DNA of 24,641 nt from Fragilaria crotonensis (lineage: Eukaryota > Bacillariophyta > Fragilariophyceae > Fragilariales > Fragilariaceae). Position 1 is the stretch's first letter, and the number at the start of each line of letters is the position of its first letter. The stretch covers positions 1 through 24,641 of the forward strand of contig JAKSYS010000797.1 in assembly GCA_022925895.1 (NCBI GenBank). Direction: 5' to 3'. The notes below the pieces were generated by a model. That model searched no databases and was not told where the DNA came from. It was given only the letters and a program-made list of their open reading frames with translations. Of the stretch, positions 2,216 to 23,881 are shown piece after piece. A program made the translations under genes and the position numbers.

Positions 2216-2893
2216 TGTATGAATATGATGTCAAATCCTTTTTTTTGAAGACAGCACCTCCAACACGTACAGTACAACGTCCTATAAAATGTAAAGGCGC
2301 ATTGTTAAGTACCGCAGTCATTGAGATATTCATTGTCAAAGCCAATGTAGTTAATGGCAATATTCTCTGCCGAGTTCATCACAAGGTGGGTTTTTGTGAG
2401 TTGATATACATGTAGTCATTAATGACGGTTTATGTTTACTAAAGTGGTTACTTTTAGACTTAAAAATAGTCAATAGTTATATATAGTTGGTTTTTTTCTA
2501 CATGTTATAATGATATAATACTTAAATATTTTTATTATCAAATTTTAACAGTGAATTCTTGAATTATAATCAATCTATATGGTTTGATATCAACAAAAAA
2601 AGATAAACTATAAATATATTTCTGATTGAATCAACAAAGTGATGGGTATAGCGAATTGATTTTCACTGCAGCAACCATTTTTTCAAAAATTTGACTTGGT
2701 GTTTTCTAAATTCACTGATATTGAGGCATACTCGCCAGTTAGGTTTCCGAGGCACAGTGAATGGCGTTGTCTAAAACTTTTACCGTATTTCTGGCATTTA
2801 ATGGCTGTTGTTCAACAGGTCCAGTGATCTTTTGAGTTCATTGTTGAATCTTCGACAATTCTGTGCATTGCTTCTCTCTTTACAAGGATTCAC
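2216..2893. other. Gene-free stretch before the transposase
   Basis: No convincing coding sequence is seen. The part from about 2420 to 2640 is strongly A/T-rich. Several CACTG/CACAGTG words lie between 2665 and 2760 (TTTTCACTGCAGC, AAATTCACTGATA, GGCACAGTGAATG) and could belong to a degraded transposon end, but no matching inverted repeat was found past the partner gene. Confidence 0.4.
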
Positions 2894-5800
2894 ATGCCGA
2901 AACGCACATCCTCTACTACGTTGTGTGACGGATGTCACAAACCCTTCAAGCGAATCCAGGTACACTTGAATCACAATCTTGTTTGCAACAGCATTTATGC
3001 TTCTCGGAAGAGCACAATTGATCTGTCTGCTGGTATTGGTGGTACTTTGATTAACAGGAGTGCTGCCAAGGCCGCGCAAAACCACGCTTCGTTGTCCTCA
3101 CATATCCTCACAGGACAAGTAAGTACTGGACACCAGGAGGGTCACAGTCGTCAACGATTTTCTGCACCATTCGAATTCAGTTCTGTTCAGGATGCTGGTC
3201 GTGCTGCTTCTGTTGAAGCACTAGATGGTGACGATGACCCCGATGAGCATGAATTGGACGACGACGATGACGTCAATCCTTTTGGTGAGGAAGAGTCGTT
3301 GACGACGCCACCTGATTTGGTTGAGAACGGAACGACAGACCCTGACGAAGGAGTCCTTGAATTGTACGAGGAACTCCTCCGCCTTCAGTCAAATCCATTA
3401 TCCTCGCTGGCCAAATTCTCTTGTGAAGAGAAGGTTCATATTGAGTTGCTTCAACTCCTAAAAGACTTGAAGGCGCCACTTTCTGCGTTTAAGTACATAC
3501 TGAACTGGGCCGCGAAAGCAAATGAAAATGGCCACCAATTTCAGACCAGTTGCCAGCCATCACGTGAGACGGTTACAAAGATGTTGTTCAGTCGTTATAA
3601 CATGCATGGTTTGGTTCCCAAGGAGAAGAAGTTGTATCTGCCCTATTCAAAGCGTATTGTTACGATGGTATATTTCGATGCACGCCAAGTGTTTGCGTCA
3701 TTGCTGTCATGCCGTTCCCTCAATAAGGACGAGTGTTTTATGTTTCATGAACAGGGGGATCCATTTGCTGTGCCTGATGCGAGGACATCAGTAATTGGTG
3801 ACATCAACAGTGGTCGGTGTTATCGAGAAACCTATAAGAAATTGGTGAAGAATCCGCAGTCTGACATGATACTTCCTTGTGTGCTTGCAATGGACAAGAC
3901 GCACATTGACCTTCCGGGTAGACTCCAGATGGAGCCAATCACAATTTCTCACGGGTTATTGAAGCATGAGTTTCGCCGTTTACCCATTGCAATGCGAATT
4001 TTGGGTTACATCTATCACGGGAGTGCCTCACGTAAGGCTCAGAAGGTTGACCTCAACGTTGATTACAATGAGGCACCCAATGACCTTCCTCCTGGTGTTG
4101 CGACTGTGAGCAATGTTCTAAAACCTAAAAAAGGCGTCACCTGGCCTACATACATGTTGAATGAGTATCACATGCAGATTGCATTTATTCTTTCGGCATC
4201 AGGTTTTTTAAGTTTGCAGGACAAAGGCTTCAAGTGGAAGCTTCAATACAAGAAGACTGTCCACGACGTCGTATTTCACCCCTTTGTCCCTTTCATAATT
4301 GGTGACACGGAGGGTCACGATCGTCTTTGCGGGCACTACACCGCACGATTTGCAAAAATCAAACAACTATGCCGTGCATGCGAATGTCCCACAGAGATGA
4401 CTGGTTACTCGAAATCTGTGTACCGCCACAGGAAGCCAAGTCATGTTGGAGGTTTGGTGAGAGAGGGTGATGTTGAATCCTTACGCGCACTATCACAAAA
4501 TTATGTTGTTAACGGCTTTAACAAAGTTCGGTTTGGCCAGCACAATGCGAGAGGAATTTTTGGAGCTTGTCCTGGTGAAATCCTCCACTTGATCACACTT
4601 GGGTGGTTCAAGTACTGCCTTGAATCCTTTGCACACCAAGCTGGCGCAAAGAAAGGGAAGAAATCGGCTGCGCTTGAACATTATGACGCTCTTTGCGCAG
4701 ACATTGGAAGTGCCATGGTACGGAAAAGTGACCGCGACCTACCACGTACAAATTTTCCGAAGGGTTTTCCACGGGATCTAATCTGATGGGTCATGAGATA
4801 CCAGGATGTCTCCTAGTCAAACTCTTCGCATTGCACACTAGTAGTTTCCGACAAATCTTTCCCCTCCTAAAGAGTCAAAGAACAAGGCTGCGAATGGAAA
4901 GGGATGGAAGAAGAACGAGAACGGAAAGCCTGCAGAAAGAAAGGGACAACAGAAACGGCCGTCGGCAACTGTGGAAGCAGGGAATGATGCTGCGATGCAC
5001 GATGCGAAGCAGGAGGAAGTGAAGTATGTACCACCCCCACTGCCTAAACTAGGGTGTCCCAAGCACACCGCAGATTGGATTCACATCATTTCTTGTCTGC
5101 TGCAATGGCATCAATGGATGAAGCAACCGACAATAAGGCGTAGTCATGTGATAAGGTTGGCCACTGGTGTTCGATGGCTAATCCGCAATGTTGCCAATAT
5201 TTGCCCACGGATGTCGGGAATGAGGAACAATACAATCAAGATGCACCTTGCGCTTCACATCAGTGAGGATATACTTGATCATGGTGTCCCCGACGTGGTA
5301 AACTCATCATATGCAGAATCTGCACATTCCACTTGCAAAGAATACATCTCGCAATACTCAGAAGCGTGTTGCATCCTTTACAAGACAAGCAGCACACCGG
5401 TACCATGAGGATTTGGCAATCTTGGTTGCCAATAATGATGTGGACGAGTTTGAGGCCAAGAAGCCTCCAATCCCTTTAACTTCCTCTGGTGCTGCTGGTC
5501 GTCGGTTTGTTCTATCGCAGAAACCCTCCTCAGCTGGTGATGACATCATGTTTGCGTGGAACTCTCCCGCGCGACAGATGATTCGCCTAAAAACAGGCTT
5601 CCATCTCGTATCTCCAAATTTATTATGAAATATTGTTGCCCAGATGTCCCCAGGGGTTTGGCAAAGTCTGTGCAATGCTTCACGGAGTTTATCTCTGAGG
5701 AAGGAGATCGGTACAGAGGCCATCCAAACTATCATGGGAAACGTTGGTGCGATCATGCAATGATTAATTGGAATCTTGATTTCCCCTTGCCAGGACTCAT

Positions 5801-6271
5801 TCACACCTTTGTGGACCTTCGTCATCTCCCAGATAATACTCGTATTCGCACGAAACTACAAAAGAATCTCAAACCTGGAATGTATGCGGTTTTGGAATCC
5901 TACGATGCAGAAGATGCAGATCCGGCTGTTCGAATAATATGATCGGCCTGTACACACTTCATAGGGAACCAGAAGAGGGTCGTGGCAATATGCTGGTATC
6001 TATTTACCTCATCGAGGTTGGGAGCATCTTTGCTCCCACAGTTGGGATTCCGGACTTCGGGAACAGAGACTCAGACAAGTATTTGTTCCTATTCCGAAGA
6101 AGAGAGGAATGGCCATCAGCATGGGATCATTTTGTACAGTACTGTTGCAAGAATAACGAGGAGGAAAGCTTAGAGTCTGAATACGAGGAGGAGGATGACA
6201 AAGACAACGAAGAAGTCAACGAGGACGACGAGCAGGATGATGACGACGACGATGAGCAGGAGGATGACAAT

Positions 6272-6315
<44 letters not shown>

Positions 6316-6469
6316 CAATGACAATGACAATGACAAAGAGGATGACAATGATGACAAGGACGACAAGGATGATGATGATGAGGACAATGACGACGATGAC
6401 AACAACTCGGATGATAACGATGATGACAACGAGAACGAGGATGATAACGACGATGACGACAACGAGTGA
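2894..6469 (+). pseudogene. Plavaka-like (KDZ/CACTA-related) transposase, frameshifted
   Basis: This would cut and paste its own DNA element using a DDE nuclease. The first 630 codons are open. A Cys/His finger lies at residues 11-31 (C11, C14, H24, H27). A strongly acidic linker follows. The first catalytic Asp is probably D334 in the MDKTHID segment, and the second D471 in GDTEGHD, followed by a CRAC-type cysteine knuckle (C493, C496, C498). After a frameshift at 4763-4770 the block containing GHEIPG supplies a candidate Glu (codon 4795). Further frame changes fall near 4865, 5325, 5580 and 5938. The protein then ends in a long Asp/Glu tail, stopping at 6467. Frames join edge to edge with no splice sites needed, so this is a decayed gene and not an intron-rich one. 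The Plavaka-type family is recognised from motif order, not from a search. Residue assignments are inference. Confidence 0.6.
6174..6466 (+). repeat. GAY trinucleotide tract coding a poly-acidic tail
   Basis: An imperfect run of GAC/GAT/GAG codons, purest at about 6238-6315, encodes roughly 95 residues of Asp, Glu and Asn at the C-terminus of the transposase-like gene. The opposite strand reads as a serine-rich frame, which is a shadow. Confidence 0.8.
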
Positions 6470-6624
6470 ATACTCAACAAGTACAATGGTAGGTTACATA
6501 CGGCAAGCTAAATTCTAAACTTTAGTACTCCTTTCTTCTCCTTTTCTTTTCTTCCATTGTTGTGAAGGTGCACCAACGCCTACTAATTCCATCCCCAGAT
6601 TGAGCTCATCATCAAAAGGTGTGG

Positions 6625-8620
6625 TCACTCCTCCAATCGTATATCATCCTTGCACGTCGTGGACGATGATACGATGGCAGCACATGCATTGACCCTGCCC
6701 GCCCGAACAACCTTCTCTTTGCATGCCGTGAACGTTCCGTAAAGGTGATTGTCAAACCTTGACCGCCACCCGAAAAAACTTCGGCGTTGTCCTCGCCGTC
6801 GGGTTTGGAAACCGAAGTGCAGTGCCGAAGCACTCGCCCATCCCAGCTGATGGCAACTCCGTGATAGAGGCGCACAGCCAACCCAGAGAAAGGTTTGCCA
6901 TCTGCTCGTGTGCCAAACACATTTGGCATTATGAAGTACCAATTAGAGGCTTTGCCGGGCATCTCTTCCGTCCACACAGCAAAGCCCTGCGAACAATCAT
7001 TGACATCAAAGTGTGAAGAGTTGCCGAGGTTGACACTCATGTCAATAGTGCGCCCAACCCAATCCCCATCCTTTCCGTCCATAGGAGACATCATCGGAAC
7101 ACCAGAGTCGCTTTCCAAAGTCTTGATCAAGTGCATCAAGTCAGGGTAACACAGACGGCCAAGGCAACAAAGAGCAGCAACCATGTCTCGCAGGACAAGT
7201 TCGTCAACCTTTTCGTTTGCAGCGTAAGGAATCATGGTAGCCCCATCTCCCTCCACACGCATGCCAATGGCGTACATGTTACCAACATCACCCCCCGTAT
7301 TCCTGACCCCACTAGTTGTTCGCATGCCCCGGCGAATTGCAGTGTTACACCGCGTGATCTTCAAAAGCAAAGACGCACGGCGGGCTATTCTCAATTTCAA
7401 GTCGTCCATCGGCACAGGATCTGTTTTCAGCATGAGGGTATGCCTCACCCTCACCACAGTTTGCCGATCCACCGAGGTCCCACACGGTGCATCATCAATC
7501 ACGACGTCTACCATCGGATCAACCACGGGATCCAACACCAAGCATGAAGATGGAAGGTCAAAGTAACGTGTACCCGAAGCGTAGTGCCGACCGCCGAGTC
7601 GGGCAGACTTAGATCCCGCAAGAATAGAGTTGAATTCCAGTGCCAGTACCTCCCGTGGCCATGCCAAGGAGAAATTCTGTCCTGAGATAACATCTGGGGG
7701 CAACATGGGGCCGTCTTGATCAGCGCACTGATTGGCACGAATGATCACACGTTTGTCGCAAAGAATATTGTACGTCATGCGCCACACCGAAACTGGAAGG
7801 CCATCAGAACCGCCACCACAATGAAGTCGCTTAACATAACCGCCATCACCAATGGTGTACATAGGAACACGACGTTGTTGAGAGTCCAAAACTTCACTGC
7901 GATGTAGGCGAAGCCAACTCATGTCGTGAGGAACAAGCGTCTTTTCAACACCTGCGTCAGCACGTCGTCGATCACATGAGCAGTAGAAGACACCAGCATT
8001 GGGGATGAAAGCTATCAACGCACGGAACTGATAGTCCACAGAGTCATCAAGATCATCCGGTTTGAAGCATCTCATCACCCGAACATCATTGCCATTGTTA
8101 ATCTCGCTTGTAGTGGGAACAATTGCACGATTCAGCACAACATCCATGAAAAACACTTCACAGACAGATTCCCCAGGGGAGATGCTTCACATGCGACTCG
8201 TGGAACATATCTGATAGCTTATTGATGCGATAGAAGTCGCAGATGCGATATCCCACAGAATCCAAGGCCGCTCGAAAGAATGAGACAGGAGTGCCGCAGA
8301 TATCGTCATCAACGCCGCCAATTGGAGGAAGAGGAGGATTCAGCACGGCATCTCTGAAGGCTGTCGCAACCCGCTCGCGATAATCCTCCTGATCAAAAAA
8401 ACAGTACCTGCATCAACAGTGAAAGTACACGCTCCTTTGACGGAAGGAATCCTTCAGCAGTCCGATCTAAAGGCAGAGAACTGCCAGCAATGTCATGGCC
8501 TGCAGCACCAACCCCAACCGCACGCGGATTGCGTCCCATGGCTGAAACAGAGCTCTGCGCCGGAAGCGTACGCCGCGCGCTAGCTATCCTGGCGCGATCT
8601 CGTGAAGGATCTGCAAACAT
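6625..8620 (-). pseudogene. 2OG-Fe(II) dioxygenase-like transposon-associated protein, frameshifted
   Basis: A minus-strand gene of about 665 codons faces the transposase-like gene, the 3' ends lying 155 bp apart. It starts at ATG 8620. The frame breaks in a T7 run (minus strand, about 8395-8401), again near 8183-8190, and again near 6750-6770, where the better C-terminus is the frame containing NHLYGTFTACKEK and ending at 6625. The middle segment (8156-6612, 514 codons open) contains HFD at codons 382-384 and, 61 residues later, H445 in GRVLRHCTSV. An HxD...H triad at this spacing is the metal-binding pattern of 2-oxoglutarate/Fe(II) dioxygenases such as the TET/JBP group. The basic residue that would hold 2-oxoglutarate is not certain. 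Alternative: an unrelated transposon accessory protein. The coding nature is well supported, the enzyme class much less so. Confidence 0.45.
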
Positions 8621-8633
8621 GATGATACCGACG

Positions 8634-8865
8634 ATAAGGCGGCAACGCGATCACTAACGACAAGTTGTTCACCCCTGTCTGGGGAAACAACCAATCCTGA
8701 GTTCGCACGCGCCAGAAAAACAAGCAATTCCCCTCTTCACGTTGAGTGATAAGGCAGCACGTCGTCACAAAGGACAGATTTGCAAATCCCTGTCTGGGGA
8801 GAAGGCAATTGTACCAGAGTTCCAACACGCCAGAAAAGCAAGCAGTTCCCCTCTTCAGACGACAA
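8634..8865 (-). repeat. Two divergent 115-bp tandem repeats
   Basis: Two adjacent units with a 115-bp period lie directly upstream of the minus-strand dioxygenase-like gene. Shared words include ATAAGGC(G/A)GCA, CCCTGTCTGGGGA (8673 and 8788), CGCCAGAAAA(A/G)CAAGCA and TTCCCCTCTTCA. They could be a promoter array or subterminal transposon repeats. The apparent reading frame across them is not convincing as a gene. Confidence 0.75.
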
Positions 8866-9709
8866 CAAGCATGAATGTGGTATACCTCACGTATGTGCTG
8901 GGCACAAAGAGTGCAACAGCAGTGTGGATGTCCATAAATTGTTGTGAAAGCAACTCGTGCAAAATAGTGCATTTCACGTCGATTCCAGTATAACCAATAC
9001 TACGTGCAAGGCACGCGTTATGTGGGACTTCAGGCCAAAATTTCCTTCCCTCAAAACTGTCTAAGTACAAAAACAAATAAACATGTGTTAGTCATTTATT
9101 TTTCATCTTCTTCATTTTGCCATGGCAACAAGACCCTAACTAACGTAGCCATAGATGTGCTAAATCCTTATGTATTCAGGCACACATTCTTGTCACATAC
9201 AGAAATTCCAAGTCGAATGCATCACCAGCCAGCCAGTACTTAAGATGATAACGGTAATTTACCTTAGTACTGAGAACTGACGCATCGCAGCACCTAAAAA
9301 AACTCGCAGCACTTAGTAACAAATCATATATACCAAGCACATGCGCATCTTCATCGTACCGAGTGAGTGTACATGATACGCAAACATCGGAGTATTCCAC
9401 GAAGTAATCGTGGCGGTTACAAAAACGATTAGCGGCAAAATATTGCCATATAAACGTATACACATCATGATATATTGCAGGAATATAACTAGTAAGCCTT
9501 CAATCCCCGACACAGCAATATTTATTTACAACGGTAGCTTGCCACAAACAATTGTACAGTGCCTTTAGTAATAATTTCTGTCGACACACCCATTCAAATT
9601 GACTCTGTGTCAAGCATACAAACAACATGTGTGCCCAACTCTTCAAATTTAAATGGGAGTTGTGAACAAAAGTGCTTCGCGCTCAAAACTTTTCTTGTGT
9701 GCATAAGCG
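8866..9709. other. Gene-free stretch
   Basis: Both strands hold only short, compositionally random frames. No terminal inverted repeat matching the region in front of the transposase was found here, so the right-hand boundary of the 2894-8620 element stays open. Confidence 0.4.
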
Positions 9710-11071
9710 ATGAAACTTGTTCCCACAATTGTATACTTCTACAACAGAGTAACTGAAGCCATGAACAACGGAACTGTATCTGACAAATCAGACTCCGAAT
9801 CTTTATATGAGGATGAAGACAGCGGCAGTGGCGAAGACGAAATTGCCGAATCGTCAAAAGGAGGAAAGCGGCAAAGAGAACATATCGAAGAAGAGACCAT
9901 GACAACGAGGAGGCTACGGCACGGTCTAGTAGCCCGGACCACACATATAACACAAGTGACGGAGAAGAAAATAGTGACCAAGAACGAGAGTGGGATAGGG
10001 AGTTGACAAAATGCTTCCCTGCCGGGGTGCCGAGGAATTACATTCGTCCGATGATGACGATGATGATGACGACTATGTTGTTCCTGCAAAACGTGGAAGA
10101 ACATCGTCAGCAGGAGCTGCGCAGAATTTGGAGGGGTTGATACGAGTAAGAGGTATGTCAGCAAAAGAATCGTCCATGTCGGAAAAACACCAGGAGAACA
10201 TTGCAGATAGGGTCACAACTTACGTCAGAAAACATATGTTTCGAGTCGTCAAGTTTATCAGCAATGAACACATGTTTGGTAAGGCTTTCAAGGAGGTGAT
10301 GGACCACGAGTGTGTGGCAAACCGAGATCGTGTGAAATTCCAGATGTTATATGAAAGTGTTTTTAACCATGCGTTGAACAGCAAGAGGAGCACATGCGAG
10401 CAGGCGGGAAGAACATCATGATGAGAGAACTAAAACAATTCAAGGAAGATAGAATGGATGTGTTCTCAATTGATGAATTACAAAAAATGAGGAGAGCAAG
10501 TACGGAAAGGAGAAAAAGCATTCCTCTGGTTCTATGGAACATTTCTTGAGTGCGTTTGTGGCCTGAAGCACTGGGGTGTACAAAAGAGTAAGCAATTGGT
10601 GTCGCAGGCGACGAGCTCGGCCACAAAACACGGCAAGTTGGTGACCATCAGCGACGAGGCTTTCGCTCTCCTTCTCTACGACAACTATATTGAGAAGTGG
10701 CTCAAGGCATTTCAGCGAGAGGAACAACTGCGGCACGAGACCCCACCAGCAGAACCACAACCAAGGAGCGGCGCCGGCGGCAGGGAAAGTCCAAGAGGGA
10801 AAGGGAGAAAGGCAAGTATACTGCGCAAAAAACAGGCCACTGCAAGTATGGTGGATGGAGCCGCGAAGGAATGGCAAGGTACAACGAATTCTATCACTTG
10901 GTGAAGGCTGATCGCACGTGTGAACAAGCCATGGATATGGAGCGTGAACTGCTCAATCACTGCATTGCACTGAAAAGGAGAGGAACAAATGGTGAAGGAA
11001 GTCGAGACACCTCCGATGGAGAGCAGGCAGAAGCATTAGAACCAGTGGAAGCATGTTGGGATTTGGAATAA
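9710..11071 (+). pseudogene. Unrecognised algal repeat-associated protein, frameshifted
   Basis: I do not recognise a named domain. The likely start is ATG 9761 (or 9710). The order is an acidic, Ser-rich N-terminus with a lysine/arginine patch, a second acidic run of eight Asp, then a dense coding-like core (about 10194-10405) containing FISNEHMFGKAF and RVKFQMLYESVF. After frame changes near 9950-10010, 10405 and in an A5 run at 10513-10517 comes a segment with FLWFYGTFLECVCG and an ISDEAFALLLYDNYIEKW block (to about 10705). A last shift between 10700 and 10770 leads to a basic region, then GHCKYGGWSREGMARYNEF and the stop at 11071. Four shifts joined without splice sites argue for a decayed gene. 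It converges on the SAP-like gene 11657-12493. The acidic-plus-zinc-like make-up and context suggest a mobile-element protein, which is inference. Confidence 0.5.
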
Positions 11072-11656
11072 CAACGCAATTTATTGAGGTGCACAATTAT
11101 TATGATCATCACCATAACATTCTGAAACGAAACCGCAACGAGTGATTACTCCACTTTTGAATGTGGAGATGTCGACATGCAGCGTCATTGTTAAACATAG
11201 AAACTTAAACTATACACATATTGTTGTCAAGCAATCAATATTTCAAGCTAGTAAGCAACGTTTAACAACGACTCTGCACAATTTAAAGAATTTCATTTCA
11301 TCAGATAAAGTTATAGCATTTATCTTTTATTGTTATAAATGACTATAATATGGTGACAGATACCCATTAAATTGATTTATTCAATTTACATTGTGATTCA
11401 AATTTACTGCATAACGTTGCTTAAAACCAAAAAAAGCCATGTAAACCAATTTAAAAGTTTAAAACACAAAGCAAATTGTAATTGCAATCGACAAATCTTG
11501 TTTTATTTAGGACACCCCTGTTTTGATGTTTGTTGAGTATTTGCTTAAGGACGGTGTAGTATGATTTTAAACTGTGAAATATAACTTTAAAATGTTAGTG
11601 CTAAATATTTTATAATCATTAATCCCCGTCCACTAACCATATGTATTGAATCCATT
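11072..11656. other. A/T-rich gene-free spacer
   Basis: No coding signal is seen. The stretch separates two convergent broken genes and contains the solitary transposon end at 11508-11520. Base composition is markedly richer in A/T than the flanking genes. Confidence 0.5.
11508..11520 (+). repeat. Solitary hAT-like right end
   Basis: TAGGACACCCCTG is identical to the last 13 bases of the element at 385-2177 and is preceded by a similar T/A-rich TTTATT. No left end (CAGGGG(C/T)GTCCT) was found within reach, so this is a truncated or excised relic. Confidence 0.5.
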
Positions 11657-12493
11657 TTATTTTTTAAAAGTCACCATATACCACCTTGTGATGTTGTCAA
11701 GGTAGGTAAGCAAAAGCTTGTCATAGTATGTGGGCTTGTTTGCAAACGTCTTCTTCCTTGCGTCGACGAGTTCCCGAATGGTAGGACAGGAACCCATGTT
11801 GTTGACAATGTCTACTCGGTTCCTCTCATCAAGCCAAATGTTGATGGCTCAATAGTATGTTCCATCGATCGTAACTGAAGATGGCACGGTGGTCTTGTTA
11901 CATGTTTTTGGCTTCTTGCTGGATGGTGACGGCTCAACTGCCAACATGAGGTTCTTTCCCCGCCTCTTCTTCTTTGTCGTCTCATTTGCCAACAATGAAG
12001 CGGCAGCTTTATCCGTGGTTGACCGCGTCACTGGGGATGATGCAGCTGGCATTTTGGAATCATCTTCACTGGAATCGGAATAGAGCTGAGAATTATCAGC
12101 ATCAACATGCAGCAGTCTAGTATCTTGTAGTGGTGACTCGTCCTCAACATTTTCATCATCATACTGGTCCCTCTCCACAAATTCGTTCTTTTTTTGTTCC
12201 CAAAGCAAGCTCACCATTTCATCATGCCTCCTGTTCTTGTACCCTGACATCTTGAATTTGGAACACAGCGCACGTAGATGTTTCATGTTCCATGATTCTA
12301 AAGGCTTTGAATCAATTGATTCAATGCTCTCACAATCCGCAGAAAGCACGATGCTGTCCAGAGTAACAATTCTTGTCCACTCATTGAATGCCGCATCGGC
12401 ATTCTTCTTTTTCTCGGCCTTTTTCTTCTCCAGCAACATCATGTGATGCTGCTTTGCAGCAGTGATCTCCGACTCTTGCTGGGCACCATCCAT
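11657..12493 (-). pseudogene. SAP-like DNA-binding protein with in-frame TGA
   Basis: The start is taken at ATG 12491-12493, giving MDGAQQES; an ATG 21 bases upstream is possible. A Lys/Ala-rich helix lies near residues 10-35. Residues about 66-98 (SWNMKHLRALCSKFKMSGYK and following) fit the SAP helix-turn-helix, a motif that binds DNA or chromatin. Then come an acidic stretch, a Ser-rich part and basic clusters (KKKRRGK) that could direct nuclear import. A TGA at 11849-11851 ends the open frame after TIDGTYY. The same frame then continues open for 63 codons (AINIWLDERNRVDIVNNMG, DARKKTFANKPTYYDKLL) to TAA 11657-11659, and this part looks as coding as the rest. A nonsense change is the simplest reading; programmed readthrough is less likely. 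It converges on the broken gene 9710-11071. Confidence 0.5.
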
Positions 12494-12959: not shown

Positions 12960-14958
12960 TATACCTTTTACAATCTTACCGCCTTATCGGCTGTGGCCTC
13001 TTCTGACGCCATGACCTTCAAGATTGTTTTCGCGCCGGATCGATATATTCCTGTCACAGATCGGCGTCAAAATTCCCCTATCCATCTATCCGTCGACCAA
13101 ATTCGTGTGATCAACTCAATCCTCTCCGAAAGTCCACCGGACGGGAAACCAGTGATCGAAGATAACCCGACGCTCATCATACGTTCACTGAACACCACGA
13201 GCCACGGAACCCACGAAGAACAGGCCATTGGAAATTTCACTCGGCGCAAACTCATTCGTCTTTCGAACTGGAGTGAATGGCAACAGAGCGAAGTCAAGCA
13301 GCTTGACTCTATGCAGAAACAAGACATGTATGGTGAACCATGTCTCCCTCCGCCAGACGCCATCATCCTTCGTCAACATTGGAATTACTCGATCAAGGCC
13401 GACGGAACTCGTAAAGCAAGGAATTGCTGTGATGGCTCACCCCGCGCAGCTCCGCAATTGAAATTGGCAAACACATATTCGTCATGTATTGAGCAACCTT
13501 GTATGCGTTTGTTCTTCGCATTATGTGCTCATGAAGGATTCATCAGCCTTAAGGTGGATGCGACCAATGCATACGCAAACTCTCCCCCATCGGAGCAGCC
13601 AACTTTTGTATTCATCGACGACCAATACGCGGAGTGGTATTTTGCTCGTTTCGGTATCCAGGTCCCTCGCGATATGGTTCTCCCCGTCCAACATGCCTTA
13701 CAAGGACATCCCGAATCAGGAGCCCTATGGGAAAAGTTTGTGAATAGCGTCATTGCTCGACATGGTTTCAAATCCACCGTTCATGAACGTAGCCTCTACC
13801 AAGGAACATACAAAGGACATCGTATGCTCATTTGCCGTCAAGTTGATGATTTGCCTTAGCCATTGGATGCAAAGATCCCGAGGCCATACGCGATCTTGTT
13901 CGCACCATCTGCAAGGAGGATGGTATTGATCTCCGCGATGATGGAATTCTCAATTCTTTTAATGGCGTTGATGTTGAACAAGCAGATCGCTACATCAAAA
14001 TATCCTGCGAGACATACATCGAAAAGCTGCTCACACATTATGGATGGTCCGCTCCTGGAAATCATGAAACAGATGTCAAACCCATCAAACCTCTGGCATC
14101 ATCAACACTGCAACAGATGTTTGAGGACTATGAAACGTCTCCGCATGACGGTACACCCGAACACGCTGCCTTGGAACGCTCTGCAGGGTTCTCCTATCGA
14201 AGCGTCCTTGGTGCCCTGATTTATGCCTACGTGGTCGCACGTCCTGACATTGGTTACGCCATGACCACCCTTGCTCGTTTCTCAAGCCGGCCCTCTAAAG
14301 TCCATTATGACGCCCTTCGACGTGTTGCACGATATCTTCGGATAACTAAGACATGGGGCCTCTACTATTGGCGTCGTGCTCCTCTGACCATACTTCCGGC
14401 TGGTGTTTTCCAACCTCTGTCTTCCGATCCGTCTCTCCCTTCTTTCCCCGAGCCATCGCAGCCTACTCTTCTCGCCGGATACGTTGACGCCGCTCACGCC
14501 ACTGACCTTATTACTCGTCGTTCCATCACGGGTATCGCTTTCATGCTCGGTGGTGGACCAATCGCGTACAAGTCAAAAATTCAATCTACGGTCTCCACCA
14601 GTTCCACCGAAGCCGAATTCCTCGCTGCCATGCGGCCAAAATCGCCAAGTATCTCCGATCCATTCTCGACGAACTTGGTTATGTTCAACATGAGCCTACT
14701 CGCCTTTATGAAGATAACGCAGCCGCGATTCTGATGATCAATGCCAGCCGACCGACACCACGTTCCCGTCACATTGACATTCAGCATTTTGCGATTCAAG
14801 AGTGGAAAGCAAATCGTGAGATTGTTCTTGAGCACATTCCGGGGATCATAAATCCGGCAGATTCACTAACCAAATCCCTCGGTACCACACTCCATCATCG
14901 ACACGTTCGCCGTTTGATGGGACACTACGGCGCCCCCTCCAGTCACCACTCCTCTTAG
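12960..14958 (+). pseudogene. Ty1/Copia pol fragment: reverse transcriptase and RNase H
   Basis: This is the 3' half of a Copia polyprotein, which copies element RNA into DNA. The RT domain shows the first catalytic Asp in VDATNAYANS (codon 13557) and the paired Asp in RQVDD (13845-13850). A one-base deletion just after it, about 13851-13853, ends the first frame at 13859. The second frame (about 13853-14734) holds ARPDIGYAMTTLARF and RNase H with D at 14486 and STSSTEAEF. A second shift at about 14630-14635 moves to the third frame, with YEDNAA (D 14713), RSRHIDIQHF and PADSLTKSL, stopping at 14958. No gag, protease or integrase is visible upstream, so the copy is 5'-truncated as well as frameshifted. 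The N-terminus of the open frame is arbitrary: it opens after TGA 12957, and the first ATG is at 13011. Confidence 0.9.
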
Positions 14959-15925: not shown

Positions 15926-16636
15926 GACAGAACCATTTTACTAGGTGAATTAGGTCTTTAATTGCAATTTTTTTACTTTCTATGCTATGTTAGTATACTT
16001 GTTAACTAACCTCCAAAAAGGCACGTACTTGGAAGCCCTGCTCAGGAAAGTTTTCCGCATGTGGCGGGCTAACCCCCAACCCAGAGCACGTAGCACGGTA
16101 GTAGTCTACTCGGTACTGTACTGTAGTGCTGTTTAATACAATATGGTATAATACAGTAAAATACAGTATAATACACCCTCCATCTCAAATATTTGTTTAA
16201 TACAATTCGATAGGTAGGACGGGAGTTAACAACGGTAAAATATATTAAAACATTACAAAAAGCGAGTGATACATGCTGAGGTGAACGCTGCATGCCCTTT
16301 TCAAGGCTCACAGTTTACACTAATTCAATCTCTGGTTCACCAATCCTATCAGAAAGGCAAGCAGTGGTTTCTTCGCCCTTCTCTCCCCTCGACCTCGCAG
16401 CAGTGTCTCGGGTTCCACACACAGTATCGACTACTGTAGTATCGACTAGTGAAAGACACAACATCAAAGGCTACCATTCTCTAGCTGAGAATTGACTTTC
16501 GCATTCGCTCGTAACCAGGTATGTCTCACAAACAAACAAAGGCATGATCGAATGATATGCCTCGTCGCTCATCACATCCCCGTTCCCATGCCATATTGCT
16601 AACATCATCCCTTTTCCCTAATGATCCTCATCAAGG
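15926..16636. other. Gene-free stretch with TACAGTA-type repeats
   Basis: The part at 16085-16180 is full of short repeats (GGTACTGTACTGTAG, ATACAGTAAAATACAGTATAATACA). At 16172 a TA is followed by CACCCTCCATCTCAAATATT, which resembles a mariner/Stowaway end, but no partner end was found. No gene is seen. Confidence 0.4.
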
Positions 16637-16644
16637 TATAAAAG
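16637..16644 (+). promoter_or_regulatory. Possible TATA box of ANK-1
   Basis: TATAAAAG lies 74 bases before the chosen ATG of ANK-1, a plausible distance for a core promoter with a short leader. It is not conserved in front of ANK-2 or ANK-3, so support is weak. Confidence 0.25.
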
Positions 16645-16717
16645 TGTGATTTTGTTCGACAAGTCCTATCACATTCCTCCTTTTGCCTACCATAGTGAAG
16701 TGCTGACCGAAAGCACA

Positions 16718-18002
16718 ATGTCATTGATGGACTCCTCCGAACAGCAAAGGTTCCGTCAAAATATTGCTTCGCTCATCGATTCCGCACCAAACCTGTCAAT
16801 CAGGGGTCGTCGTCATCTGCTGCGATGCCTGGAGAGATGCCTAAAGGGAGGTGATGTGAATTACCCTGTTTATGCTGACAGGACACTTCTGTCCTTGGCA
16901 TGCCGCTTTGGAGCTTTGAACATTGCCTGCGAGTTGTTGAGACACAAGGAGGTCAATGAATGCCACAGACTTCGATGGCCGCACTCCACTCGCCTCCGCT
17001 TGCGCGCTGGGACATCTGGACATTGTCTACGAATTGTTGAAATGCAAGGAGTTGGATGTAAACATCAGGGATGACAACGGCCTAACACCATTGATATGGG
17101 CATGCACCAGGGGACACTTGGATATCGTTCGCGAATTATTGAAACGCATGGACGTCGATGTCAATGTCCAAGATAATGAAGGGCGCACTCCACTCATTCA
17201 CTCATGTTGCACTGGATCACCGCACATTGTTTGCGAATTGTTGAAACACAAGCAAGTGGATTTGCATTTGCGCGATTCTAAATCCCGCGCCCCACTCGCC
17301 TACGCATGCGCCAGCGGAAGTTTGGAAACTGTCTGCTATTTGTTAAAACACAAAGAGGTGGATGTAAATGCCCAATGTAAGGATGGCTGCACTCCACTCA
17401 TAGTGGCCAGCTTCACGGGAAATGTGGACATTGCTCGTGAATTGTTGAAGCACAAGAAGGTGGATGTCAATATCAGGGATAACGCTGGCTCGACACCACT
17501 CTTGATGGCATGCGGCCGTGGCCATTTGAACATTGTCTGCGAGCTATTGAATCACACGGAGGTGGATATGTTCATGCGAAATAGTAAAGGTCGCACACCA
17601 CTAAGGATCGCATGGTCGCATGGCCATATGGACGTTGTTGGGCATATGCTGAAGCTCCTGGGCATGGATGTCAATGTCCATGCAGAGGATCGATGGGAAA
17701 GTGTTCTCGAGTTGTTGAAGTATGAGAAGGCGAATGTGAATGCACAAGGTGCTCTTGGTAACACAGCCCTTATCTGGGCGACCCTTAGCGGCCGGTTGGA
17801 TGTAGTTTGTGAGCTTTTGGATGACGTCAGGGTGGATGTGAGTATTCGGAATAAAGCAGGATCGACGGCGTTGGACATTGCTCGCAAATGCGATTTGTTA
17901 GAAATCGCACGCTGTCTCGAGGAACATGCCAATGCTTCTCGGCGTCGCGAGTCAGGAGCATATATCCTTCGAACAGCAGATGACAGACAAATTTCGGATT
18001 AG
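16718..18002 (+). pseudogene. Ankyrin-repeat protein ANK-1, frameshifted and C-terminally altered
   Basis: Ankyrin repeats are protein-binding scaffolds; the partner is unknown. The start ATG 16718 is chosen because the three paralogues share the context AGCACAATG and then a DSSEQ motif (MSLMDSSEQQRFRQ here). After a 70-residue N-terminus come about eleven repeats of 33-34 residues (consensus G.TPL..AC..GHL.IV.ELLKHKEVDVN). At about 16953-16962 GAGGTCAATGAATGCC stands where the family has GAGGTGGATGTGAATGCC, a 2-base loss. The first frame runs to 17074 and the repeats continue in the frame that is open to 18002. The ninth repeat is shortened. The C-terminus lacks the RERKRRR tail of the other two: deletions of 16 and 30 bases after CTTCGA removed it and the ancestral stop, so translation runs into old 3' UTR before TAG 18000. 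No signal peptide or membrane segment is seen. If the indel is a sequencing error the gene could be intact. Confidence 0.85.
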
Positions 18003-18456
18003 CCCATGGGGTGGCGGGCAAGTGGTTAGGATATTTATATGGTTAGGGATTTTCGTTGTTAGATATGTCTAGTGTATTGCCATGTTTCTGACCGCAATAA
18101 TAAGTCAACGACGTTGATTTGATTCGTCTCATTGTACATTTTCCTCACACTTTTTGAAGGCTTTAAAATATCTACGCTTGTATATGTTTGGCACCTTGGA
18201 TTACAATCACTCCATGTATATATCGCGAAGTTGTTACGTAAACGTGCCCCTCGAAGACAATTCACACAACTCGACACACTTCTATTTTTCAAGAATGGGG
18301 ATCGGATAGTGCCAGTAGCCCAGTGCTCGATGCGCAATCCCACAGGAACACAACACGCGCAACACACACATACTGCGGTGTTCTTGATAGTCGCCACAAC
18401 ATCCCTCCTTTGCTGTCCTATAATTGAGTGTGCGACCCAAAAGATTCAATAGCACA
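18003..18456. other. Intergenic spacer ANK-1 / ANK-2
   Basis: No gene is seen. The CA-rich run ACACAACACGCGCAACACAC is at about 18350-18369. The spacer should contain the ANK-2 promoter; CCTATAATTGAGTG at about 18417 is the only TATA-like word near the start. Confidence 0.4.
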
Positions 18457-20349
18457 ATGTCGTCGTTGGATTCTTCAGAACAAGAAACATGGTTCTGGAA
18501 CAAGATCAATTCGCTCGTACATGCACCCGGCTATCCATACCATGATCGTCGTGAACACCTGCAAATTCTACAGGAGGCTGATGTGAAGCAATGGGATCCA
18601 CGTGACCGTAGTAGTTGGACATGTCTTTATATTGCAAGCGGACTTGGGGACTTGGAAATGGTTCGCGAGTTGTTACAACACAAGGACGTGATCAAGGCGG
18701 TGAATGGCAGCAGCAGTGGACACGGTAGCACAGCACTAATGATGGCATGCATGTATGACCATCTGCCAATTGTTTGCGAGTTGTTGAAGCAAAAGGAGAT
18801 TGATTTGAATATCAGAGATGTAAGAGGTCGCACAGCGCTCATCACTGCATGCATGCGCGGACATTTGGGGATTGTTTGCGAGTTGTTGAAGCGCAGAGAG
18901 GTGGATGTGAATGCCCAATGCACAAGAGGCCTAACAGCACTCTTCACTGCAGCCGACCTTGGATATTTGGAAATTGCTCGTAAGTTGTTGAAGCGCGAAG
19001 AGGTGGCTGTGAACGCCCAAGATGAGCATGGTCGAACAGCACTCAAGGCTGCAAGTGGTTATGGACATGTGGGAATCGTTTGCGAGTTATTGAAACACAA
19101 GGAGTTGGATGTGAATATCGGAGATACACGCAATATAACAGCACTCACTAGTGCAATCATTTCTGGCCATGTTGGGATTGTTCGCGAGTTGTTACAACAC
19201 AAGAAGTTGGATGTGAATGTCTAAGATATTAATGGTCGTACGCCACTCATCATTGCATGTAACAATGGTGATTTGGATATTGTTCGCGAGTTGTTGCAGC
19301 GCAAGGAAGTGAATGTGAATGCCCAAAACAAATATGCCGACACACCACTCGGCCTTGCAAGCAGCGATGGACATATGGCTATTGTTTGCGCGTTGTTGGA
19401 GCACAAGTCGAAAAAGTTGAAAATGAATATCAGAAATATGGACGGCCGCACGCCACTATGCTGGCATGTGTCAGAGGACGTCTGCCAATCGTTCACACGT
19501 TGTTGCAGCACCATGAGGTGGATGCGAACGCCCAAGATAAGGATGGCAAAACACCACTCCTCTATGCATGCTCGGAGAATAGGTATGGCATTGTTCGCAT
19601 GCTGTTGCTGCGCAAAGAGGTGAATGTGAATGCCCAAGATAAAAATGGCTACACACCACTCATCAGTGCAAGTGAAGATGGCTTTTTGGGAATTGTTCGC
19701 GCGCTGTTGAAACACAAGGCGGTGGATACGAATGCCCGCGACAATCGCGGCCACACATCACTCGCCATTGCAAGCAACACCAAAGAATTGGGACATTGTT
19801 TGCGAGTTGCTGAAACAAAAGGAAGTGGATGTGAATGCCCAAGATAACCAAGGCTGCACACCACTTATCCTTGCATGCTCCATGGAACATTGGCCGAGTG
19901 AATTGGATCGTAATTTATCTATTGTTTCCAAATTGTTGCAACGCGAGGGGGTGGATGTAAATCGAAGAGACGAAAAAGGTCGCACAGCCTTATACGTAGC
20001 GATTGCAGATGGTCGAAGGGAAGTTGTTCTAGAGTTGGTGAAACACGGCGAGTTGGATGTGAATGTTAGAGGTGCTCATGGCAACACAGCCCTTATCTGG
20101 GCAACCCTTAGGGGCCGGTTGGATGTGGTTTGTGGGCTTTTGGATGACGACAGAGTGGATGTGAGTGTTCGGAATAAAGCAGGATCGACAGCTTTGGACA
20201 TTGCTCGCAAATGTAACTTGTTTGAAATTGCTCGCCGTCTCGAGGAACATTCCAAAGTTGGTCAGCGTCGTGAGTGGGAAGCAAAGGCGCTTCGGCAAGA
20301 TGTGGAATTGCACAACAGGGAAAGAAAGCGGCGGCGTTTATCAGTCTGA
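18457..20349 (+). pseudogene. Ankyrin-repeat protein ANK-2, stop plus two frameshifts
   Basis: This paralogue of ANK-1 and ANK-3 starts at ATG 18457 (TAGCACAATG context, MSSLDSSEQE); an in-frame ATG at 18424 also exists. About 16 ankyrin repeats can be followed, more than in either neighbour. TAA at 19222-19224 stands where the family has CAA (GTC-CAA-GAT), a single C-to-T nonsense change, and the same frame continues at once with DINGRTPLIIACNNGDLDIV. A one-base loss at about 19460 (CCACTATG for CCACTCATG) and another shift at about 19780-19790 follow. The last frame ends normally at TGA 20347-20349 after the basic tail RERKRRRLSV, nuclear-localisation-like. One repeat near 19880-19940 carries a 9-residue insertion also seen in ANK-3. 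Three lesions make this a pseudogene. Confidence 0.88.
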
Positions 20350-21895: not shown

Positions 21896-22513
21896 CCCAC
21901 GGGTATCAGCAGCGCCATCTCCGAGAGATTCAACAGTTGCTCGACCCTACATTGTCCTTCCAAAAGCACTGCACGGATCCTTGTGAGCAGTGTAGATTGG
22001 TGAGCCTCACTCATATAACAGGGATCATGCTCCGAGAGTATCCGTGTATAATGTAGTGGTGTCCAAAAGTACTGGAGTACTCCGATACTGAGTAGTGCTA
22101 TGCCGTACAAAAGTCGTCAAAGTCCTACAGTCCTACGGTTATAATGTCCTGAATTCACTTCCTTCTATTGGCACGCCAATCGAAACTTGTATGTACTACT
22201 ATTAGCTAGTAGAGTAGTACCAGATACAAGATACCGGATGTATCGCAGATCGCACGTACAATTACTGGTACAAGTACTGGTATGCATACCTCCTTGGATT
22301 AAGCTGCGTAGTTGAATCATACACTGTAGAACAGTACAGGTACAGTACGACGAACTAAGTCCAAGAAATATCTCCAGATTTGATGTTCGTTGTTCGTAAT
22401 CTCCTCATCTGACATCTTACTTCTGTCACTAGTACAAATTGTTGTTGTTGTAGGACCAGGGCCGCGGTCCACTAGATGAGCTTTAGTTTCTTCACCGTGC
22501 TCGCTTTAGCACA
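21896..22513. other. Spacer before ANK-3 with GTACT motifs
   Basis: The part 22055-22360 is dense in TACTG/GTACT words, including AGTACTGGAGTAC at 22068-22080, the same word as at 149-161. A weak minus-strand continuation of the VPS53 region (LEGQCRVEQLLNLSEMAL, about 21910-21965) may be more of the fragment. No other gene is seen. Confidence 0.4.
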
Positions 22514-23881
22514 ATGCCGACATTGTTGGATTCCTCCGAACAGCAAAGGTTCCGGAATAATATAAATTCTCTCCTCAATGCCACACCCGACCTGTCAATG
22601 GAGGTTCGCTGCCGTCTGGAGCTATGCCTATACACTGACCTGAATCGCCAGGATCGTGTCGGTAGAACATCTCTCTCCTACGCATGTCGCCACGGCCATT
22701 TGGAAATCGCGTTGGAGTTGTTGAGACACAAGGACGTCAATGTCAACATCAACGACCGTAATCGCCGCACACCACTCATGTTTGCATGTTCCAATCGACA
22801 TCGGGACAGCATGGGTGGTAATTTAGGTATTGTTCGCGAATTGTTGAAACACCAAGTCGTCCTTGAGAATGTGAATGCCCAAGATATGTATGGACGCTCA
22901 CCTCTCCTTGATGCATGCTCCGAGGGAAATTTGGACATTGTTGTCGAATTATTGAAACACAATGGGGTGGATGTGAATGTACGAGGGTTGCATGGCTTCT
23001 CACCACTCATCAAAGCATCCATGGTTGGTAATCTGGAAATTGTTTGCGAGTTATTGAATTACAAGGATATGGAGGTGGATGTGAATGCCCAAGATGCTAT
23101 AAGCCGTACACCACTCATTATTGCGTGTTCAGATCGCAATTTGGGGATTGTTTCCAAATTGCTGGATCACGACAAGATTGATGTGAATATCAGAAACAGT
23201 GGAGGGTGCACAGCACTCATCATTGCAACCGTCCATGCTCAATTGGGTATTGTTCGCGCATTGCTGAAATGCACGGGGACTAAAGTGAATGCCCGAGATA
23301 GTGATGGCCGCACACCGCTCATCATTGCAAGCTATTCAGGCTGCTTTGGAATCGTTTGCGAGTTATTGAAGCATAAGGAGTTGGATGTGAATATGCCAGA
23401 TAGTGCAGGCAGTACACCACTCATCATCGCATGCACCCAGGGAAACTGGGACATTGTTCGCGCCTTGTTTAAAAACAAGGATGTTGATGTGAATGTCAGA
23501 GACAGCAAAGGCCAAACAGCGTTATACTGGGCCTGTGGACAGGATCGATGGGATGTTATTCTCGATTTGTTGAATCACAGCAACTTGCATGTGAATGTTC
23601 AAGGTGCTCACGGCAACACAGTCCTCATCTGGGCCTGCCTCAGGGGCCGGTTGGACGTTGTTCACGAGTTTCTGAAAGACGGACGGGTAGACTTGAGTGT
23701 AAGGAATAAAGCAGGATCGACAGCTCTGGACATTGCTCGCAAATGTGAGTTGTTTGATATCGTACGTTGTCTTGAGGAACATTCCAAGGCTTCTCGGCGA
23801 CGCGAGTTGGAAGCAACGAACCTTCGACATGATATCGATTTGAACAGCAGGGAAAGAAAGCGGCGTCGTTCATCAAAATGA
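22514..23881 (+). CDS. Ankyrin-repeat protein ANK-3, intact
   Basis: This is the one unbroken member of the cluster, 455 residues, with no signal peptide or membrane segment, so probably cytosolic or nuclear. ATG 22514 sits in the TAGCACAATG context shared with ANK-1 and ANK-2, and the N-terminus (MPTLLDSSEQQRFRNNINSL) is the family's. About eleven ankyrin repeats fill residues 55-420, each near 34 residues with the usual TPL..A and IV.ELL helices. The second repeat carries a 9-residue insertion (RHRDSMGGN). The last two repeats (GAHGNT.. and NKAGSTALDIARKC) are the most conserved part between paralogues. The C-terminus is basic (RRRELEATN...RERKRRRSSK), which could be a nuclear localisation signal. 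Ankyrin proteins act as adaptors; the partner is unknown. The VPS53 fragment separates it from ANK-2. Confidence 0.92.
   Translation: MPTLLDSSEQQRFRNNINSLLNATPDLSMEVRCRLELCLYTDLNRQDRVGRTSLSYACRHGHLEIALELLRHKDVNVNINDRNRRTPLMFACSNRHRDSMGGNLGIVRELLKHQVVLENVNAQDMYGRSPLLDACSEGNLDIVVELLKHNGVDVNVRGLHGFSPLIKASMVGNLEIVCELLNYKDMEVDVNAQDAISRTPLIIACSDRNLGIVSKLLDHDKIDVNIRNSGGCTALIIATVHAQLGIVRALLKCTGTKVNARDSDGRTPLIIASYSGCFGIVCELLKHKELDVNMPDSAGSTPLIIACTQGNWDIVRALFKNKDVDVNVRDSKGQTALYWACGQDRWDVILDLLNHSNLHVNVQGAHGNTVLIWACLRGRLDVVHEFLKDGRVDLSVRNKAGSTALDIARKCELFDIVRCLEEHSKASRRRELEATNLRHDIDLNSRERKRRRSSK

Follow-up and report, generated by a model that had tools for sequence, protein, structure and literature searches.

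What does a dioxygenase-like gene do beside a transposase gene in an alga, and do the two travel together? The question is raised by positions 2894-8620 of a 24,641-nucleotide stretch of Fragilaria crotonensis DNA (assembly GCA_022925895.1, contig JAKSYS010000797.1, forward strand), hereafter the window. A preliminary description had taken this pair for a possible algal counterpart of Kyakuja-Dileera-Zisupton (KDZ) transposons with TET/JBP genes. We find that a recently amplified cut-and-paste transposon of the Plavaka type (CACTA-like) is present as one copy in the window, that the transposase gene and its partner gene are almost certainly mobile together as one unit, and that the partner family is very probably carried by Mutator-like element (MULE) transposons as well. 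The best overall explanation, to which we assign a probability of roughly 0.42, is a Plavaka transposon with a portable putative Fe(II) dioxygenase that counters host silencing. The host is a photosynthetic eukaryote, as indicated by 61 light-harvesting family matches in its genome.

A Plavaka transposon with two convergent genes

The transposon is a complete copy of 9,317 bp on the forward strand (2377-11693). In blastn comparisons with seven other copies, using those complete on the respective side, similarity stops at 2375-2377 on the left and at 11689-11696 on the right. Since these limits coincide with the inverted repeat CATCACAAGGTGG...CCACCTTGTGATG, the ends were set at 2377 and 11693. 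The left terminal repeat (2377-2402, forward strand) begins with CATCACAAGGTGG and pairs with the right one (11668-11693, reverse strand), which ends with CCACCTTGTGATG; over 26 nt the two are 81% complementary, and their outer 13 bases are identical. Both termini were readable in five of the eight copies and one terminus in the remaining three. Four of the five both-ended copies are flanked by a 2-bp target-site duplication (TT in the window, at 2375-2376 and 11694-11695; TT in C279, AT in C108, TC in C571; none in C138); four or more of five would be so flanked by chance with a probability of 7e-5, assuming that a pair of bases matches 1 time in 16. The seven further copies, all in the same 62-Mb genome, are 98.7-99.6% identical to that of the window, and all eight are mutually 98.6-99.8% identical over ungapped columns, suggesting that amplification was recent. 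Copies C22 and C40 have the same left flank and the same inserts and thus represent one event, so that the seven further copies occupy at least six independent sites besides that of the window.

The transposase gene (2894-6469, forward strand) is frame-disrupted in the window: its reading frame is open at 2828-4786 and the gene then continues in other frames through 6469. Its product matched the Pfam profile PF18759 (E 2.8e-7; 30.5 bits, the cut-off being 26.3), as did a paralogue (E 6.3e-9, above the curated cut-off). Conserved motifs lie at 3890, 4301, 4370, 4574, and 4789, and MDKTHID (3890), GDTEGHD (4301), CRACEC, and GHEIPG (4789), which follow one another in this order, may include the catalytic residues. 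The N-terminus carries a motif of zinc-binding type, CxxCHKxFKRxxxHLxxNxxC (2924-2986, forward strand), whose Cys and His columns are kept in two aligned paralogues and which may bind a zinc ion. The partner gene converges on the transposase gene from the reverse strand at a distance of 155 bp (frames ending at 6469 and 6625). MDKTHID, GDTEGHD, GHEIPG, and this convergent arrangement were all part of the preliminary description and are all present. As a separate observation, the transposase gene of C22 and C40 is interrupted, at the window equivalent of 4306, by a retroelement of ~6.9 kb (L049-L050, L052-L053) with reverse-transcriptase and tyrosine-recombinase-type domains named by eye.

KDZ transposons with TET/JBP genes were reportedly described by Iyer et al. 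in 2014. Like them, the present element links a putative base-modifying enzyme to a transposon of large copy number; unlike them, it has a transposase of another superfamily. In the consulted parts of Kojima 2025 (PMC12730594), Plavaka shows no similarity to KDZ in sequence and belongs to a CACTA-like group, defined by acidic catalytic residues, the last of which is preceded by a C(2)C motif; target duplications measure 7 bp in Kyakuja and 8 bp in Zisupton. Given a Plavaka transposase and a duplication of 2 bp rather than 7-8 bp, KDZ membership was rejected; what stood of the earlier proposal is a Plavaka-type pair between common repeats. The same parts of that study describe a PlavakaB type, with termini CATCA..TGATG and 2-3-bp duplications, which includes all of its TET/JBP-carrying Plavaka elements (PMC12730594), and it is to this type that the termini of the window's element correspond.

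Both genes are disrupted in the window, and this copy is likely dead as assembled, in line with the preliminary description. The eight near copies together have 33 private frame-shifting indels within the spans of the two genes and another 21 elsewhere. Of the 31 private indels that affect a single base, 13 fall within 5 bases of a homopolymer, compared to 12% of positions. As the indels differ among copies and cluster at homopolymers, some may be sequencing or assembly errors, which qualifies the verdict on this copy.

A third open region of the transposon (9999-11071, forward strand) comprises open reading frames at 9999-10421, 10491-10904, and 10694-11071. It had no Pfam match; two of the frames had none in NCBIfam, and the PHROGs search gave one weak score (E 0.032). 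This region may be another accessory gene. Copies of the right end of the transposon were also found at 13 other places in the genome at 79-89% identity (12 of ~74 bp and one of 113 bp), and perhaps represent other or non-autonomous Plavaka families.

The partner family across the genome and in MULE transposons

Three merged searches identified at least 119 loci of the partner family in the genome, a count that keeps two loci of C873 apart and includes the added queries L051 and L055; with a coarser gap rule that merges the two C873 loci, 77 loci were obtained, 24 of them convergent with a Plavaka transposase within 4.0 kb. Some loci are duplicates of one assembly place (C22 and C40, and several with identical scores), and the counts are thus not counts of independent events. 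By identity to the queries, loci were grouped into a window-like W group (52), an M clade with a mean identity of at least 62% to a MULE-borne copy in C22 (23), and a divergent D group (44). Outside this genome, relatives were sought in five viral-contig scans (one with no pattern match, four with unconfirmed ones) and one genome-contig scan (23 pattern matches, none confirmed), so that the comparisons are all drawn from the genome of the window.

A Plavaka transposase lies within 5 kb of 34 of the 119 partner loci, and in 32 of these cases the two genes are convergent (2 co-directional, none divergent). Random placement, in which the genome formed a single line of 62.1 Mb and each gene a point reaching 6.5 kb, gave a mean of 3.5 and a maximum of 11 such neighbors in 2000 trials. 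The list of neighbors was built from the window transposase and PF18759, and may thus miss distant Plavaka relatives. Adjacency by accident, through nested insertions in repeat-rich DNA, would have a precedent here, as a MULE is nested in a Plavaka copy and a retroelement in the transposase gene of C22 and C40. Yet transposase and partner share their terminal repeats in near-identical copies, and the Plavaka neighbors are nearly uniform in orientation; an accident is thereby refuted for the window's family and retains next to no probability. PF18759 had 80 matches across the genome.

The nested MULE is itself informative. In C22, as in C40, the Plavaka copy runs as far as the position equivalent to 11594 of the window and picks up again at that of 11585, ~7 kb further on. 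The 7,066-bp insert (C22:22107-29172) has terminal inverted repeats of at least 91 bp, identical at 89 of 91 readable bases, with an end score of 87 compared to at most 19 for shuffled ends, and it is bordered on both sides by CTTTAAAATG, a 9-10-bp duplication. MULE target duplications typically measure about 9 bp. Between its repeats, the insert contains a partner gene (C22:22803-24800), a Ulp1 protease (PF02902, 5.8e-8), and a MULE transposase (PF10551, 3.5e-8; PF00872, 3e-6). Transposase, long terminal inverted repeats, and duplication together characterize it as a MULE, and one accessory family thus occurs in two unrelated transposon superfamilies.

Across the genome, a MULE transposase was found within 5 kb of 18 of the 119 loci (random mean 2.2, maximum 8) and a Ulp1 match within 5 kb of 17 (random mean 1.1, maximum 6). 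The M clade accounts for 16 of the MULE neighbors (16 of 23 loci, all divergent) and 13 of the Ulp1 matches, and 13 of its loci have both. The two other MULE neighbors belong to the W group and are convergent (C592 and C20); with Ulp1 matches on the same strand at C20, C193, and C873 (62847), they hint at a second MULE arrangement, and no terminal repeats were readable around these four W-group loci.

We further evaluated the exchange of the partner gene in a tree of nine partner sequences, rooted by assumption on three from the D group. The window's family joins C592 and C873, and the MULE copy of C22 joins the Plavaka-linked C317, both splits being supported (IQ-TREE 98 for each; FastTree 0.945 and 0.98). 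This topology suggests at least two partner switches between the superfamilies, a count qualified by the partial sequence of C317, which is co-directional with its Plavaka neighbor, and by the unbounded host element of C592.

Purifying selection has acted on the partner protein. Among 21 partner pairs compared, four were unsaturated at synonymous sites, with ratios of non-synonymous to synonymous substitution rates (dN/dS) of 0.26 (C592/C873), 0.30 (C873/C122), 0.13 (C285/C466), and 0.11 (C122/C466); low synonymous divergence (0.13) is confined to C592/C873, and the other values are rough. For the transposase, the one unsaturated pair of three (C30/C249) gave a dN/dS of 0.126. Intact partner paralogues, of the C592, C873, or C122 type, have open frames of at least 751 aa.

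Candidate iron site and possible role of the partner

The partner gene (6612-8620, reverse strand) was delineated from its open reading frames and its family of loci. It is frame-disrupted, with a main frame at 8186-6612 and the Met that opens the N-terminal part at 8620 in a different frame. Alignment of family members delineates a candidate iron site, H392xD394 ... H442G ... GR451 ... H455 (6822-7013, reverse strand), in which the HxD occupies main-frame residues 392-394 (from window position 7013 downwards) and the distal histidine may be residue 442 or 455. The HxD is invariant in all seven aligned rows, two of which represent the window's family in nearly identical copies, and H442, H455, D449, R451, and R454 are invariant in all six rows that reach that region. 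From the HxD, the spacing is 50 residues to H442 or 63-64 to H455. The layout (HxD, 47 residues, HG, then an R nine residues past that histidine) follows the usual order in Fe(II)/2-oxoglutarate (2OG) enzymes. For comparison, the iron residues of CMD1, an algal TET homologue, are His345, Asp347, and His397, with a spacing of 52, in the sections consulted of PMC7854593. The partner thus keeps the HxD...H motif typical of Fe(II) dioxygenases, which the preliminary description had pointed out, and a dioxygenase identity is plausible; we give even odds that the protein is an Fe(II) dioxygenase.

Profile searches did not assign the partner to a family. Neither PF12851 (Tet_JBP) nor the 2OG-Fe(II) profiles matched the partner. 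PF12851 and PF20515 had no match anywhere in the genome; these are weak negatives because the controls were nearly silent, PF12851 matching once in control genomes, below the cut-off, and PF20515 never. PDB profile searches with the partner returned chance-level matches (best E 0.38), and CMD1 was absent from the matches at E up to 10. In the consulted parts of PMC12730594, PE-type proteins reached CMD1 in HHpred at no better than E 1.4, and distant members of TET/JBP may thus escape profiles.

Several observations weigh against the overall explanation. The partner had no meaningful match in searches of Pfam, NCBIfam, PHROGs, and PDB, and its distal iron ligand is ambiguous between two conserved histidines. 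Two single-sequence structure predictions, which bear on the double-stranded beta-helix fold of Fe(II)/2OG dioxygenases, were unusable, with pLDDT values of 29.5 and 31.2. Of the 119 partner loci, 64 have neither a Plavaka nor a MULE or Ulp1 match within 5 kb (33 of the 44 D-group loci, 7 of the 23 M-clade loci, and 24 of the 52 W-group loci), in a search that was not aimed at distant Plavaka relatives or other transposon families. A second set of 22 Plavaka transposases scores better against PF18759 than the partner-linked set, and not one of the 22 has a partner locus within 6 kb, so that the partner marks one Plavaka lineage and not Plavaka generally in this genome. Finally, the CpG effect among the copies is mild.

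Fold evidence and a family match being absent, the conserved H, D, and R residues could form another kind of site (e.g., nuclease or zinc), and the protein could be a second transposition protein; CACTA and MuDR elements indeed make accessory transposition products. Also consistent with this, W405, W416, and W448 are as conserved as the H, D, and R residues, with 56 of 190 core columns invariant in the alignment. However, the succession of HxD, ~50 residues, HG, 7 residues, and R recalls the Fe(II)/2OG order, and a protein tied to one transposition mechanism would hardly fit both Plavaka and MULE. We thus consider a function other than that of a dioxygenase rather unlikely.

If the partner is a dioxygenase that counters host silencing, iron would be bound by H392, D394, and H442 (or H455), and the co-substrate by R451 or another basic residue close to it. 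The enzyme would oxidize either methylated bases of the element that encodes it or a different silencing mark, and oxidation would keep host DNA methylation from silencing the transposase gene. Such a gene might pass between superfamilies because it would be useful to any silenced DNA transposon, as proposed here by analogy with fungal TET/JBP genes. On the host side, the C5-cytosine methyltransferase family has 13 matches in the genome, some of them pieces of one gene and some possibly contamination, and a target for a base-oxidizing enzyme may thus exist. Transitions per site among the copies reach 0.043 at CpG, compared to 0.017 and 0.027 at other C or G (~2x), a weak sign of methylation. 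Because of the fungal parallel, these methyltransferase matches, and the retention of the partner family by two transposition machineries, we tentatively propose that the partner acts on nucleic-acid silencing marks.

Motif conservation is mute on the substrate, and the same Fe(II) dioxygenase-like protein may act on something other than methylated DNA, such as RNA, histones, or the transposase, or have another role in transposition. The lack of a sequence match to TET/JBP would fit this possibility, as would the Ulp1-type protease, a protein-acting enzyme, that adjoins the partner in 13 of the 23 M-clade loci. Conversely, the host has cytosine methyltransferase matches, and the nearest parallel, TET/JBP in fungal Plavaka, Zisupton, Kyakuja, and other elements, is thought to be DNA-directed, according to the parts consulted of PMC12730594. 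On balance, a different substrate appears unlikely. A bolder form of the anti-silencing explanation, with a new dioxygenase family showing no detectable relation to TET/JBP, a portable anti-silencing function, at least two Plavaka-MULE exchanges, and perhaps a new DNA base modification, is somewhat doubtful.

If the anti-silencing explanation holds, algal transposons would have arrived independently at what fungal elements do, bringing along an enzyme that erases silencing marks and is common to several superfamilies. Were the partner base-oxidizing, it would provide a new enzyme family for the study of DNA modification; the host has cytosine methyltransferase genes, and the copies are young enough for tests of activity. 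Whatever the enzyme does, its retention under selection by two unrelated superfamilies suggests a general aid to DNA transposons.

Known systems and neighboring features

KI-MULEs of plants are MULE elements with a Ulp1 protease. The MULE of C22 resembles them in having a transposase and Ulp1 between long repeats and a 9-10-bp duplication, and differs in its additional dioxygenase-like gene, divergent from the transposase. The closest counterparts of the window's element are TET-carrying PlavakaB transposons of Agaricales fungi, which, in the text consulted, share with it a Plavaka transposase, CATCA..TGATG termini, a 2-3-bp duplication, an accessory gene beside the transposase, and the occurrence of accessory genes in several transposon superfamilies (PMC12730594). 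Unlike these, the element described here has an algal host and a partner without a TET/JBP or 2OG profile match, and the sharing involves MULE, which is not among the TET-carrying superfamilies named in the abstract of that study; MuDR appears in a single introductory passage of it (PMC12730594). CMD1 resembles the partner in its algal origin and in a HxD...H spacing of 52, compared to 50 or 63 here (PMC7854593, as far as consulted), whereas the partner's PDB profile searches did not retrieve it.

Plavaka is already known outside fungi, and what is new is its cargo, a partner family shared with MULEs. Among non-fungal eukaryotes, the consulted portions of two reports place Plavaka transposases in giant repeats of Amoebidium (PMC11244446) and, as EnSpm-Plavaka, in the green alga Auxenochlorella (PMC12636532), and these portions do not mention a dioxygenase-like partner. 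In the literature searched, at the level of titles and abstract openings, no description of such a partner in algal Plavaka or MULE was found.

Outside the transposon, the window contains several other repeats and genes. To its right, a Copia-type reverse transcriptase (PF07727, in 12960-13859) lies within a region of broken frames (12960-14958). Further on are ankyrin-repeat genes at 16625-20349 and 22487-23881, with 102-nt periodic repeats, partly frame-disrupted and with Pfam matches for two frames. To the left, ~190 bp from the transposon, a 27-nt inverted repeat of 89% identity (379-405 and 2157-2183), which holds CAGGGGCG, encloses 1.8 kb, and the stretch 379-2183 may thus be another DNA transposon.

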